Below, one piece after another: positions 3,144-20,576 of a DNA stretch of 35,309 nt (positions are counted from its first letter, which is position 1; each line of letters opens with the position of its first letter). The stretch is from NCBI GenBank assembly GCA_021777845.1, contig JAJYDB010000014.1, positions 1 to 35,309 of the forward strand. The letters are read 5' to 3'. The translations under genes were made by a program, and so were the position numbers. The DNA is from Planctomycetota bacterium (lineage in GTDB: Bacteria > Planctomycetota > Planctomycetia > Isosphaerales > Isosphaeraceae). Below the pieces are notes generated by a model. It had not been told where the DNA came from, did no database searches, and saw only the letters and a list, made by a program, of their open reading frames with translations.

Positions 3144-4736
3144 ATGCGAATTCTCGACCGTGAGCGGTACTGGTCGTTCATCAAGTCGTACGCGATTTGC
3201 TTTGTCTCGCTCGTCGGGCTGTGGGTAGTGATCGACGCGTTTTCGAATTTCGACGAGTTCGCGAAGCGCGCCGCGGGCTGGCAAGTCTTTGCCATCATGG
3301 GTCGTTTTTATTTGGTGCGGATCACGCAGTATTATGACCGTCTGTGCGGCGTGATCAGCATGATGGCGGCGATATTCACCGTCACGATGATGCAGCGAAA
3401 CAACGAGCTGCTGGCGATGCTGGCGGCGGGGATCAGCACGCAGCGGGTGATCCGGCCGGTGCTGGTGGCGGCGGTCTTGGTGAACGGCTTGGCGGTCGCG
3501 AACCAGGAATTCATGATCCCGCCGCTCGCCGAGGAGTTGCAGAAGTCGCACGACGACGACGGGACGCGGCGGGTGCGCGTGGTGAGCCGGCTGGACAGCA
3601 AAGGGATCTTGGTCCAGGGTCTCGACGGCGACCGCGGGTCGCGGACCGTGGCGCACATGAACGTGACGATCCCTTCGGAATTCTTTGGCGGGCTCGTCGA
3701 GATCGAGAGTCGCGCGGCGACGTATATCCCCGAAACCGTGATGCGCACGCCGATGCGCGGCGGTTGGCTGTTGCGCGGCGCGAAGCTTGACGTCGCGATG
3801 GATCCGCGCGCGCTGCGCGGCGGCGCGCTGGTGCAGCTCGATACCTGCGCCGGCTTCCCGCCGGTGCCGCCGATCGGCGACCCGAAAGAGATGGCGCTGC
3901 TCGACTGCGAAGCGTATTTCATTCGCACCGAGGTCGACTTCGAGACGCTCGTCGGCGTCGAGCGCACCGCCGACCCCGCGCGCAACCGCGTCCCCGTCCC
4001 CGCGGCGGGCAAGCTCGACCGCAACGGCATCCTGCTGCACGGCAACGACGGCGCGGGCTCGCACGCGCTCCGAAACGCACGCACCGCGTTCATGTTTTAC
4101 GCGATCTTTCCCGACGCGATGTTCGGCGGTCCGCGCGAGGTCGAGGCGCGTCAGGCGACGTACATCCCGCCCGACGACAAGGAGTCGCCGATGCGCGGCG
4201 GCTGGCTCCTGCGCGGCGCGCGCTTCAACCTGCCGATCGACGCGGCGCGCGCGAAAGAGACGCCGCTCGCCGTGCTCGACTCGACCGACGGCTATCCGCC
4301 ACCCGCCGGCGACGACCCCTTGCTCGTGAGCAACGCGTTCTTCCTGCACACCGACCTCTCGTTTCAAGCGATGACGCGTCGGCCCGACTGGTATCAATAC
4401 GCGAACACGCGCGACCTCATCGTCGGACTCTACGACCCCGTCAATCGCTCCGAGAGCCGCTCGATCGAAGTCTTTCTGCACGGCCGGCTGCTGCGTCCGT
4501 TCTTGGGGATCACGCTCATGTGCGTGAGTCTGCCCCTGGTGCTGACCGGATATAACAAGAATATGTTCTTCAGTCTCGGCGTCTCGCTGGGAGTCTCGGG
4601 TCTGTTTTACGCGGTGACGTTTTTGGGGCAATACCTTGGCGGCAGCGCCGACCTGACGCCGACGCTGGGCGCTTGGCTGCCGATGTTCCTGTTCGCGACG
4701 ATCGCCGTCGCGCGCTGGGATACAATTCGGACGTGA
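3144..4736 (+). CDS. lptG: LptF/LptG-family LPS export permease (second copy) with a duplicated periplasmic domain
   Basis: A 530-residue partner of the preceding permease, well above the ~360 residues usual for LptG. Helices are at about 15-33, 48-80 and 100-120, and at 450-470, 474-493 and 510-525. Between them lie two related periplasmic segments, about residues 145-270 and 286-411. Both have the order (K/R)NGIL or SKGIL, then YIP, then (T/S)PMRGGWLLRGA, then an Asp-rich strand, then a (Y/F)F-(I/L) strand ending before the last helices. Equivalent motifs are 141-146 residues apart (GGWLLRGA at 206-213 and 352-359). The loop MQRNNELLAMLAAGIS (83-98) matches the coupling region of the family. 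The start has a strong ribosome-binding site (AGGGAGGA, 3133-3140). Codon use changes from G-ending to C-ending near 3800. Family membership is firm; the label G rather than F is tentative. Confidence 0.82.
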   Translation: MRILDRERYWSFIKSYAICFVSLVGLWVVIDAFSNFDEFAKRAAGWQVFAIMGRFYLVRITQYYDRLCGVISMMAAIFTVTMMQRNNELLAMLAAGISTQRVIRPVLVAAVLVNGLAVANQEFMIPPLAEELQKSHDDDGTRRVRVVSRLDSKGILVQGLDGDRGSRTVAHMNVTIPSEFFGGLVEIESRAATYIPETVMRTPMRGGWLLRGAKLDVAMDPRALRGGALVQLDTCAGFPPVPPIGDPKEMALLDCEAYFIRTEVDFETLVGVERTADPARNRVPVPAAGKLDRNGILLHGNDGAGSHALRNARTAFMFYAIFPDAMFGGPREVEARQATYIPPDDKESPMRGGWLLRGARFNLPIDAARAKETPLAVLDSTDGYPPPAGDDPLLVSNAFFLHTDLSFQAMTRRPDWYQYANTRDLIVGLYDPVNRSESRSIEVFLHGRLLRPFLGITLMCVSLPLVLTGYNKNMFFSLGVSLGVSGLFYAVTFLGQYLGGSADLTPTLGAWLPMFLFATIAVARWDTIRT

Positions 4737-4848: not shown

Positions 4849-7371
4849 TCAACGAGCCTTTCGCATCGTGAAGATCACCTGCTTCGTTTCGCCGGGCCGG
4901 CATTCGACCTGACGCCCCTCGTCTTCGACCGGCAGGTAAAACCCGGGTCGCGATTCCAAGCCGACCCCCAGCGTGTGCTTGCCGGGTTCGATGAAAGTGC
5001 GGAATTTTCCGCTTTTGTCGGTGCGCGGACGGTCGCGCCGAGCGAGCCGAGGAGCTTCCCACGAGCGTAGGACGAACGTCTCGCGACCCGCTGCCGGCTC
5101 GGAGCGCCGCCAAAGGTCGACATCGCCGAGCGGAGCACCGGTGTCGGCGTCGACGGCCGTCACTTCAAGGACGCAAGCGCGCCGGAGCTTGGAGACGAGC
5201 GGCAGCGCACGCGGTTTCGCGTCGACAACGAGTTCACTGTCTGTGACGAGGTACGGCGTACCACGTGCCGGCCAGTTCTGCATGTGGTAAGTGCCGGGGG
5301 GGAGCCTCAAGACGGCGCGACCTTCGTCGTCGGTCGTTTGCCATGAGTCTGTCCCGCCTCCTCCCGCCTGGACGAGTGCCCGTGCCGCGGGCCGGCCGGT
5401 GTCTTCAAAAACGAGTTGGATCGGGATGTCGAGCGGCGTCGTGAGCGTGAGTTTCAGTTCGCCGGTGAGGACCGGAAAGCCGTCGTGATCTCGCACGGGA
5501 CCCGGGACAGATGCGGCTTGGATCCATTGTTCGGGATAATCCCTGACCCGCACGTTGATCCGAAATCGGCAATCCTCGGGCAGGCCGCCGAAGTCGAAAC
5601 GGCCCGCGGCGTCGGTGGTGCGCACCTTCATCGCAGTCGGCACGTCGGCGGGCTGATTGAGCGCGTCGAAAGTCCAACCAGGAAAGACGTTGTCGACGAC
5701 TTTCAGCGATTCACACTCGCGAATTTCGAGTTTCGCTTCGGCCAGAGGCTTGCCCCCGGCGTCGACGACGCTGCCGGAGAGGTGCGCGGCGGGCGAAAAT
5801 CGCAGATCGAGCACAATCGTTTCGCCCGCCTCGTAGCGGCCGGGCGGGTCGCGCCGTTGGGGTTCCATCCTGATGTTCGCGGGTGCGGGACGCGGATAAA
5901 ACGCTTTGGCTGGACGCCACGCGAAGCCGAAGCCCTGCGCCTGGCCAAAGATCTGGAATCGACCTTGGTCGCGCGCGAATAACTTGTCGGCCCGCGCGAT
6001 CGGCAGCGGGACGGCGCGGAACGTGTAGCGGCCCTCGACGTCGGACGTCGTCTCGGCCATGCGTTTATAATCGGCCTGCAGCGATGCCAAATAGACCCGC
6101 GCGCCCGCGATCGGCTTGCCCGCGGGGTCAAGCGCTCGACCCGTCACCGTGATCGGATGCGTCTCAGTCGCGGCCGGTTCTTGATCCGCCGGCGGTGCCG
6201 CGGGCGCGGCTTGAGTCTGTGTCGCGTCGGCGTCGTCCTTGGGACCGACCGCAACGGCCGCGGGGTGGATCGCCGCGAGTGCGATCACTGCCGCCAAGAC
6301 GACCACATACGAAGCAACGGACCCGCGCGGGGTGAGCGACCCGTGACCGCGGCTCTCGTCAAACAGCCGACGAATACGCTGTTCGAGCGTACTCGGGCGC
6401 GACGCGGGCAACGCCGCCGCGAGTGCCGACGGACGCAGCAGTCGCGCGAGTTCGACGAGCCGACCGGCGTACTCGCTGCGTTCGATCCCGACGGAGACCA
6501 CGTGATCATCGCAGGCGCACTCGCACTCGATGCGCAGCTGTCGCAGCGCGTACCAGACCGGAGGCAGAAACCAATACAGCGACGCCGCGAACCGCCCCGC
6601 CAGTTGGAACCCGACGTCGCGACGCTTGATGTGCGCCAACTCATGCAGCAAGACCAGACGCACGGCCGAGTCGGACCATGTGGCCGCCTGCGCGGGCAGC
6701 AGCACCACCGGCCGCGCCGGCCCCCAGGTCACGGGCATGGTCGGGAGCGAACTGAGCCGCAATTCAACCCGCCGAGTCATCCCCAAGGCACGCGCGGGAG
6801 ACTCGAACAAGCGCAAAAGTCGCGCGTCGACCACAAGCGAAGTGCGGCGGCGTCGCAGTTCGTTGCCAACCATGCCCGCGACCAACGGCGCGACGGCGAC
6901 GAGAAACCCCAGTGCCCAAATGTCGAGGATTCGACTCGAGGCCGCACTCGAAAAACCCGCGTCACGCGGCCGACCCAAAGTGTCCGCGGACCCGCGCGGC
7001 GCGCGGAGGTTGATCGAACCTGGAGCGGAGGTTTCCCGAAGCCCGGCCGTCGAGGCCGCGCGGGTTGAGTACGCCGTCGAAGCGTCCGCGGGCTCGGCCT
7101 CCGCCGCCTCGCGGGTCCGCGGCTCGAATACGCGCGCCAGGCCGCCGAAGGGAAGCCGTACCGCGGGAAGCAGCCATGAGAGCGGCGGCAGCACGATTAA
7201 CGCGCACAGCGTCAATGCCCAGAGACGATGACGCGCCGCCGCCGACGACCTTCTCAACAAGAGGGCCGCCGCCGCCGCGGCGCATAGCGCAAGCATCGAC
7301 TTCGCCGCCGCGTCCGCGGCGATCCACGACAATTCATCCGTGAGCAAGTAACCGCTCAGAATGCGCAGCAT
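4849..7371 (-). CDS. BlaR1/MecR1-like M56 membrane metallopeptidase with carboxypeptidase-regulatory-like repeats
   Basis: An 840-residue integral membrane protein. Helices lie at about 20-40, 48-70, 148-168 and 353-370. The M56 zinc peptidase domain contains HELAH (243-247), with the further acidic site in ECECACDDHV (282-291). In BlaR1 this domain faces the cytoplasm and, when activated, leads to loss of the BlaI repressor. The extracytoplasmic C-terminal part (~405-840) is not a penicillin-binding domain: there is no SxxK/SxN/KTG set. It holds several beta-sandwich modules of the CarboxypepD_reg/CnaB type, with GRALDPAGKPIAGARV (411-426), GSVVDAGGKPLAEAKL and two less regular copies. The signal is therefore probably not a beta-lactam. 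The gene starts one base after the stop of the BlaI-like gene (TGA-C-ATG), so the two are translationally linked. Role as signal-transducing protease is inferred from family and pairing. Confidence 0.82.
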   Translation of the reverse strand: MLRILSGYLLTDELSWIAADAAAKSMLALCAAAAAALLLRRSSAAARHRLWALTLCALIVLPPLSWLLPAVRLPFGGLARVFEPRTREAAEAEPADASTAYSTRAASTAGLRETSAPGSINLRAPRGSADTLGRPRDAGFSSAASSRILDIWALGFLVAVAPLVAGMVGNELRRRRTSLVVDARLLRLFESPARALGMTRRVELRLSSLPTMPVTWGPARPVVLLPAQAATWSDSAVRLVLLHELAHIKRRDVGFQLAGRFAASLYWFLPPVWYALRQLRIECECACDDHVVSVGIERSEYAGRLVELARLLRPSALAAALPASRPSTLEQRIRRLFDESRGHGSLTPRGSVASYVVVLAAVIALAAIHPAAVAVGPKDDADATQTQAAPAAPPADQEPAATETHPITVTGRALDPAGKPIAGARVYLASLQADYKRMAETTSDVEGRYTFRAVPLPIARADKLFARDQGRFQIFGQAQGFGFAWRPAKAFYPRPAPANIRMEPQRRDPPGRYEAGETIVLDLRFSPAAHLSGSVVDAGGKPLAEAKLEIRECESLKVVDNVFPGWTFDALNQPADVPTAMKVRTTDAAGRFDFGGLPEDCRFRINVRVRDYPEQWIQAASVPGPVRDHDGFPVLTGELKLTLTTPLDIPIQLVFEDTGRPAARALVQAGGGGTDSWQTTDDEGRAVLRLPPGTYHMQNWPARGTPYLVTDSELVVDAKPRALPLVSKLRRACVLEVTAVDADTGAPLGDVDLWRRSEPAAGRETFVLRSWEAPRLARRDRPRTDKSGKFRTFIEPGKHTLGVGLESRPGFYLPVEDEGRQVECRPGETKQVIFTMRKAR

Positions 7372-7372
7372 G

Positions 7373-7765
7373 TCACTTGCCCTCGCGACGAGCCTGTTCG
7401 ATCATTTTCTCGAGCCGTTGCAAATCTTGCTCGCTGAGACGAGTCGAAGAATCGTCGAGGATCGCCGCGACCGCGGCGGCGGGCGAATCCTCGAAAAACG
7501 TGCGCACCAGATGCGAAAGCGCCGACCTCGCCGCCGACGCTCGCGGCGTTTGCGCTCGATAGACGTACTTTGTCCCCGCTTGTCGATGCAACAGTAGTCC
7601 CTTCGACTCGAGCGCCCGCAGCATCGTCCGTACCGACGAATACGACGGCGGATCCGACAGCGCCGCCAGGACCTCGCCCACCGACGCCTCGCCCAGGCGG
7701 TAGATCACGTCCAGGATCTGTCGCTCGCGCGCCCCCAAACCGCTGACTTGGTGCTTTTTCGGCAT
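7373..7765 (-). CDS. BlaI/MecI/CopY-family winged-helix transcriptional repressor
   Basis: A 130-residue repressor. Residues ~8-75 form the winged helix (ARERQILDVIYRLGEASVGE, then SYSSVRTMLRALESKGLL as recognition helix and wing start), and the C-terminal part (~80-130) is the helical dimerisation domain. Such proteins bind a promoter operator as dimers and are removed by the partner M56 protease. The ATG at 7765 is preferred over the upstream in-frame start at 7837 because it has a ribosome-binding site (GGCGAGGAGAG) 6-7 nt upstream, and because 7837 would sit on the predicted transcription start. The protease gene follows with a 1-nt gap. A good promoter and a direct repeat lie just upstream, so autoregulation is likely. 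Confidence 0.88.
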   Translation of the reverse strand: MPKKHQVSGLGARERQILDVIYRLGEASVGEVLAALSDPPSYSSVRTMLRALESKGLLLHRQAGTKYVYRAQTPRASAARSALSHLVRTFFEDSPAAAVAAILDDSSTRLSEQDLQRLEKMIEQARREGK

Positions 7766-7824
7766 CGCACGCTCTCCTCGCCGCTCGATTCGGATGTCGA
7801 CGCGGGTCCCGCAACCTAGCCGGC

Positions 7825-7850
7825 ACTCTATTAACACCTGCTAGTCTATT
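7825..7850 (-). promoter_or_regulatory. Direct repeat at the blaI-like promoter, candidate operator
   Basis: On the minus strand AATAGACT (7843-7850) and AATAGAGT (7825-7832) are direct repeats 18 bp apart, one covering the -10 box and the other just past the start point. BlaI-family repressors commonly bind their own promoter, so these are candidate half-sites. They are direct, not the inverted TACA/TGTA dyad of staphylococcal operators, which lowers confidence. Confidence 0.35.
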
Positions 7851-15253: not shown

Positions 15254-15288
15254 ATCGAACGGACCCTCGAAACGAGTTGCGAGCGGCA

Positions 15289-18915
<3,627 letters not shown>

Positions 18916-19253
18916 ACGAGGCGATTCAAGGATCTGTCGCAGCGGTTCGTCGCGGCTAGCGAGCGTGGACGGTGCGCGCCGGACGGGAGCTCGGCATGCG
19001 AGACGCCGCGCTGGAAGCCTGACGAAGCGTTGACTTTACGGCGAGCCTCCCGGGTTCCTCGGCGAGCGGTCCAGGGTGGCCGGGTTGGCTTGGGGCTGAG
19101 GATTGGAGCGGACAGGGGCGGGTTGCGACGGTCGTACGCGAAGATCTTGTCGTCAGGTTCGGGGGGGTTGGGTACGGCGGTTGCATGTAGGTAAAGGTCG
19201 TTGTGATTCTGAGCGTGGCCGACGCGCTCTGCCCGGCGAAGGTGTACGACCTC
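18916..19253. other. 338-nt intergenic region between secA and waaA
   Basis: No gene is supported here. A TTGACT at 19030-19035 lacks a -10 at the right distance, and TTGCAT (19184-19189) with TGATTC (19207-19212), 17 nt apart, is a poor promoter match. I saw no terminator hairpin with a T run after secA. An upstream in-frame start of the waaA frame (19203) falls in this region but is not preferred. Confidence 0.4.
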
Positions 19254-20576
19254 ATGCCTTACCTGCTTGACGCTGTTTATCTAGCCCTCCTGGTTATCTT
19301 TTCGCCTTTTTTGACGCGCCGATCGGTGCGTACGGGGCGTTATCGCGAGGGATGGGGCGAGAAGCTGCTGGGGAGCGCGCCCGCGCGCTTGGGGGACGGA
19401 CCGTGCGTCTGGTTTCACGCGGTGAGCGTGGGCGAGGTGTTGTTGTTGCGGCCGGTGATCGCGGCGATGCGGCGACGTCGGCCGGGCTGGGAGGTTGTGG
19501 TTTCGACGACGTCGAGGACGGGTCTGGAGGTGGCGCGGCGGACGTTCCCGGACATCGTGACGTTTTACGCGCCGATGGATTTGAGCTGGGCGGTGAAGCG
19601 AGCGGTGGCGCGAATCCGGCCGACGGTTTTGGCGCTCGTGGAGCTTGAGATCTGGCCGAATTTGATTCGTGCGGCGCGGGAGTCGGGCGCGCGTGTGGTG
19701 GTGGTGAACGGCCGCTTGAGCGCGCGGAGTCACCGCGGATACGGGTTATTGCGGATGCCGTTGCGGTCGACGTTCCACGGTCTCGACGCGGTACTGGCAC
19801 AAACGGGCGAGTACGCGCGTCGGTTTGTGGATTTAGGCGTACCCGAGCCGCGGGTGCGGGTGACGGGGTCGGTGAAGTACGACGGGCTCGAGGTGGACCG
19901 CGACAACGCGCGGACGCGGATGCTGCGTCGCGACTTGCGTTTGGACGCGTCGGAGATCGTGTTCGTGGCGGGGAGCACGATGGAAGGCGAAGAGACGGCG
20001 GCGTTTGCGGCCTACGAGGCGGCGCGGGCGACGCATCCGCGGTTGCGGTTGGTGGTGGTGCCGCGTCACGCCGAGCGCTTCGACCAGGTGGCGGAGGAGC
20101 TGACGTCGCGGGGCGCGCGGGTGTTGCGTCGGAGCGGCGTCGGGTCGACGCAGGGAGTGGAGTCGTCGGCGCAAGGACAAGCGCAGCCTGTGGTTTTGGT
20201 GGATACGATCGGCGAGTTGGCGGCGGTGTGGGGGCTGGCGGACATCGCGTTCGTGGGGGGGAGTTTGTATCCCGGCCGGGGTGGTCAAAACATGATGGAG
20301 CCGGCGGCGTTCGGGGCGTCGGTGCTGTTTGGCCCGCACACTCGAAATTTTAAGGACACCGTCGAGCAATTGCTGGCGCGCGACGCGGCGCGGGTGGTGA
20401 CGGACGCCGAGGACCTGAAGGCGGCGCTCTTGGAGTCGCTTGAGGACCCCGAGGGGGCGGCCTCGCGGGGGGCGTCGGCGCGGTCGTTCGTGCTGGCACA
20501 GGAGGGCGCCTCGGAGCGGACTTTGGCCGAACTCGACCGTCTCGTGGATTCAACAAGGCCGGCAAAGACCACTTGA
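19254..20576 (+). CDS. waaA: 3-deoxy-D-manno-octulosonic acid (Kdo) transferase, GT30
   Basis: A 440-residue GT-B enzyme that transfers Kdo from CMP-Kdo to lipid A precursor at the cytoplasmic face of the inner membrane. An N-terminal anchor helix (~1-20) is followed by the GT30 signature around FHAVSVGEVLLLRP (54-67, with catalytic Glu61). Then come STTSRTGLEVA, YAPMDLSWAVKRA, ELEIWPNLI, VNGRLSARSHRGY and GSVKYD, and in the CMP-binding half VVPRHAERFDQV, DTIGELA, FVGGSLYPGRGGQNMMEPAAFG. The ATG at 19254 is chosen over the upstream in-frame start at 19203 because GAAGGTG lies 9 nt before it and MPYLLDAVYL is a normal start. The gene implies that the organism makes Kdo-lipid A LPS, consistent with the Lpt permeases. 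Coding-strand codons are strongly G-ending. Confidence 0.93.
   Translation: MPYLLDAVYLALLVIFSPFLTRRSVRTGRYREGWGEKLLGSAPARLGDGPCVWFHAVSVGEVLLLRPVIAAMRRRRPGWEVVVSTTSRTGLEVARRTFPDIVTFYAPMDLSWAVKRAVARIRPTVLALVELEIWPNLIRAARESGARVVVVNGRLSARSHRGYGLLRMPLRSTFHGLDAVLAQTGEYARRFVDLGVPEPRVRVTGSVKYDGLEVDRDNARTRMLRRDLRLDASEIVFVAGSTMEGEETAAFAAYEAARATHPRLRLVVVPRHAERFDQVAEELTSRGARVLRRSGVGSTQGVESSAQGQAQPVVLVDTIGELAAVWGLADIAFVGGSLYPGRGGQNMMEPAAFGASVLFGPHTRNFKDTVEQLLARDAARVVTDAEDLKAALLESLEDPEGAASRGASARSFVLAQEGASERTLAELDRLVDSTRPAKTT

Follow-up and report, generated by a model that had tools for sequence, protein, structure and literature searches.

The question raised by this locus is whether an LptG-type permease carries its periplasmic domain twice and, if so, whether the second domain takes over part of the work of LptC, as a first-pass annotation had proposed. 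The window (the whole stretch of DNA analysed, 35,309 nucleotides) comes from a Planctomycetota bacterium of the family Isosphaeraceae (assembly GCA_021777845.1, contig JAJYDB010000014.1), and the features of the locus are collected in Table 1. PF03739 matched the candidate protein with 111 bits (cut-off 27.9), the match being split in two stretches because the middle of the protein is doubled. With the NCBIfam models, the same protein gave 100 bits for LptG (TIGR04408) and 60 for LptF (TIGR04407), while its upstream neighbour gave 114 bits for TIGR04407 and 70 for TIGR04408; the scores are under the equivalog cut-off of TIGR04408 (240 bits) and also under that of TIGR04407, and the two genes were therefore assigned as an lptF-lptG pair by type. 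Judged from its sequence, the product of the second gene is an LptG-type permease.

Table 1. Features of the lptF-lptG locus, in window positions, with the evidence for each.
Feature	Position	Strand	Evidence
LptF-type permease with a single periplasmic domain, 407 aa	1844..3067	+	TIGR04407; PF03739 over full length
LptG-type permease, 530 aa, periplasmic domain doubled	3144..4736	+	PF03739 in two stretches; TIGR04408; fold match
LptG TM helices 1-3, aa 1-134	3144..3545	+	Profile match and model
First copy of the LptG periplasmic domain (core of the repeat, aa 144-269)	3552..3956	+	Domain profile 1-130/135, 150.8 bits; repeat alignment
Inter-domain linker, about aa 272-286 at pLDDT <50	3957..3983	+	Models
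Second copy of the LptG periplasmic domain (core of the repeat, aa 285-410)	3984..4394	+	Domain profile 4-135/135, 148.2 bits; pLDDT
LptG connector and TM helices 4-6, aa 418-530	4395..4733	+	Models; PF03739 C-terminal match

The surroundings of the pair fit an LPS exporter. LptF adjoins LptG, LptB is encoded in the genome (333 bits, cut-off 240) together with genes of LPS synthesis, LpxC (291 bits) and a truncated kdsC, and the window itself holds a KDO transferase gene (waaA, 19203-20576) which supports LPS synthesis; the LptB2FG assignment is thus one known from genes. By comparison with LptG of LptB2FG(C) (PF03739/TIGR04408; PDB 6mit, 6mjp, and 8frl), the protein likewise has six TM helices and its periplasmic part lies between TM3 and TM4, as read from the helices and strands of the models and their fold match to LptG chains. 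It differs in bearing two tandem periplasmic domains where the known proteins have a single jellyroll, and in its TIGR04408 score. The doubled LptG is also longer than the single-domain proteins of its relatives within Isosphaeraceae (383-451 aa), while the length of LptF is unaltered (401-431 aa in the relatives measured). Two other genes of the window were noted: downstream of lptG, on the opposite strand, a BlaR1-type M56 peptidase with a carboxypeptidase-regulatory domain adjoins a penicillinase-repressor gene (4849-7837), and a SecA of 1212 aa is encoded at 15277-18915, SecA being normally shorter.

The repeat was confirmed by aligning the protein with itself. Residues 144-269 and 285-410 shared 51 identities in 131 columns (39%, BLASTP E 8e-28), and the Smith-Waterman score was 220, the highest of 2000 shuffles of one copy reaching 56. 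The alignment covers the entire domain, well beyond the GGWLLRGA motif, and has the offset of 141-146 residues read by the first-pass annotation. The tryptophan of GGW may correspond to W204 of E. coli LptG. Both copies retain the family-invariant residues and score with the domain profile inside the range of single-domain proteins (Table 1), neither copy being degenerate. Meanwhile, in the LptF-like neighbour, which had been read as having one domain, no internal repeat was detected (best score 34, no more than 60 shuffles of comparable regions gave).

The annotation had also pointed to a close DNA match between positions 3750-3785 and 4188-4223, and 30 of the 36 bases are indeed identical. 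Over all aligned codons the nucleotide identity was 58% (50% at third positions), and at identical residues the codons agreed 28 times, compared with 27.1 expected from the codon usage of the gene. Since this count stands at the expectation, the 36-base match is simply the conserved GGWLLRGA motif. The synonymous sites are saturated, and thus the duplication is old and does not come from the assembly. An error of assembly or binning might have been suspected in a draft of 407 contigs, from a genus represented by this one genome, but it has a negligible probability, as 42% of the aligned bases differ between the copies, which share one open frame and are flanked by the TM halves as in relatives. 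What doubled the periplasmic domain of LptG in this Isosphaeraceae lineage was a tandem duplication, in frame and about 141 codons long.

By sequence alone the LptG periplasmic domain retrieved no solved structures, a profile of copy 2 and TM4-6 matching nothing relevant among their sequences. Two AlphaFold models of the doubled LptG were used, with the relatives aligned to copy 1 in one and to copy 2 in the other. In both models the order of strands and helices appears twice, with the same 141-146 residue offset, in two complete domains. The copy left uncovered by the alignment also keeps its strands, in either direction, and once covered, the copy 2 block reached pLDDT 82-96 over aa 311-410. 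The first model matched 6mit_G with a TM-score of 0.69 by target length (544 columns, E 3e-9), and the second was aligned with LptG chains over about 243 columns. Each copy is predicted to be a jellyroll, given these fold matches and the position that it takes within the LptG fold. The sequence shows that the copies stayed folded while diverging to 39% identity, and the models support this. With a pTM of 0.56 in both models the mutual orientation of the two domains is not fixed; the linker between them is short and of low confidence, and therefore a side-by-side or a head-to-tail arrangement is possible.

Homologues were then surveyed for the number of domains. The domain profile (A3), run on 45 Isosphaeraceae genomes, was matched in 42, and one copy is the typical state (40 of the 42); two full copies were seen in the window genome only (profile positions 1-130 and 4-135). 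In 8 of the 40 single-copy genomes the last strand is matched briefly a second time, which marks an insertion; in one genome (G028) the LptG gene is split and in another (G011) the second profile match is located elsewhere. In one Isosphaeraceae group (L006, L010, and L014-L019) the periplasmic domain of LptG has about 50-60 residues inserted ahead of its last strand. The closest parallel is the LptG of Isosphaeraceae bacterium 338R_metabat_119 (JANXSX010000043.1; L022, L055, and L075; hereafter G001, also among the relatives measured for LptF length), of 483 aa, which has a tandem repeat in the same region with an internal repeat score of 77 (maximum of 48 in 60 shuffles). Unlike that of the window genome, its second copy is partial (profile positions 45-135, the first copy matching 1-120) and the offset is about 100 residues.

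A profile of TM1-3 detected LptG in 245 of the 249 genomes of the class, Isosphaeraceae counted; weaker matches, many from one family, lie outside the matches listed. Among the matches listed outside Isosphaeraceae, 15 LptG chosen mostly for long frames showed no repeat, 14 of them measuring 363-383 aa from the match and one 342 aa, clipped by the stretch taken. No doubled LptG domain was found in other families of the class among these 15 and the further class members examined. Named genomes scanned with a single sequence gave no relatives; an alignment query did retrieve them, among them Singulisphaera acidiphila, Aquisphaera insulae, and Tautonia sociabilis, and these relatives point to Isosphaeraceae as the host family. 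Searches of the open-licence literature turned up no description of an LptF or LptG with its domain doubled. The doubled LptG makes this a known exporter in a rare structural form, almost unique to the window genome.

In the TM-region tree a supported group (95/92) contains G001 and leaves the window genome out, and a single ancestral duplication common to both is not favoured. In the domain tree copy 1 and copy 2 lie near each other, weakly. Two independent duplications, although not proven, are the simpler reading of these sequences. The LptG periplasmic region of the family may simply accept length changes, the duplication having been tolerated without new function and the second copy staying since its loss needs a precise deletion. 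The partial duplication of G001, the insertions before the last strand, and the confinement of two full copies to one genome agree with this, and yet over so long a time a copy without use should have decayed, while here both copies keep the invariant residues and full profile scores with synonymous sites saturated. We consider it rather unlikely that the duplication was tolerated in this way, and favour on balance an ordinary LptB2FG whose LptG bears an extra intact module, adding to the machine and not replacing LptC.

According to published work (PMC3422733), LptD occurs in every planctomycete genome that was inspected, among them those of Isosphaera pallida and S. acidiphila. A giant LptC/LptA-like protein was found in 26 of the 28 Isosphaeraceae genomes searched, counting the query genome G001, which has its own partial LptG duplication; the complete Isosphaeraceae open frames are mostly of 1196-1577 aa. 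The G001 protein begins with a hydrophobic N-terminal segment and contains an LptA/LptD_N domain that passes the Pfam cut-off, and its similarity to LptC and LptA models is weak and below cut-off; PF03968 is above cut-off in two giant proteins (P0003 and L114). The giant gene of G001 adjoins kdsC (by eye; a HAD hydrolase match), which lies upstream. Further giant LptC/LptA-like proteins of Planctomycetia, with frames of about 1000-1500 aa and an N-terminal hydrophobic segment, were seen at L113:2932-6492, L114:1451-4741, and L115:3031-6456, and in G050 the giant gene adjoins one that reads like kdsD. These proteins resemble the doubled LptG in joining Lpt-type periplasmic domains within one long chain, but they carry the N-terminal hydrophobic segment and lack permease helices, and are likely bridge proteins, not permeases; the phylum may span its periplasm with them as a single-chain bridge.

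The genome of the window was searched for these partners, and no LptC or LptA family match was found above cut-off, nor any match of the giant protein. An LptC family match on C284 (E 0.07) was discarded, the ORF reading by eye as of MCE/MlaD type. The kdsC gene, which in G001 neighbours the giant gene on its upstream side, is truncated here by the end of its contig (C249:4-210). The site expected for the giant gene thus falls at a contig end, so its absence from this assembly is uninterpretable and the missing LptA and LptC were rejected as an argument for an LptC role.

LptC, LptA, and the domains of LptF and LptG have one common fold (PMC9972910), and with the partners missing from the assembly the second domain could be imagined to share the job of LptC, LptG itself reaching the bridge. 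This reading is very improbable. The contig end accounts for the missing neighbour, and the relatives encode the separate giant protein. In solved complexes LptF makes most of the contacts with LptC, LptG touching it via one residue (PMC6744409), and the continuous path is that of LptF-LptC (PMC9972910). Besides, LptC has the plan of a single TM anchor and one jellyroll that takes over LPS from LptF, and the doubled protein, with its six TM helices, matches LptG. The share in the job of LptC proposed by the annotation was thus not sustained.

In the favoured model, with an extra module added to an ordinary exporter, the lptF-lptG operon would provide the inner-membrane part of the LPS exporter, and the permease most likely still works as LptB2FG. 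LPS, once lifted from the membrane, would pass by way of the LptF domain to the LptC/LptA-like bridge. Beside LptF, one copy of the LptG domain would retain the usual position, and the other would form an extra module beside or above it, enlarging the docking or guiding surface. A head-to-tail stack of both LptG domains, as an extra lipid-holding station beside LptF, seems unlikely; it would bring the inner-membrane jellyrolls to three and could open a second route, or provide an intermediate site, toward the bridge.

The role of the jellyroll of LptG itself is unsettled, considering that core mutations in the periplasmic domain are lethal and yet LptC is barely contacted (PMC6744409). A natural LptG with two domains, both copies intact after long divergence, would offer a test of whether the role of this domain is to guide LPS or only to give the transporter its shape.
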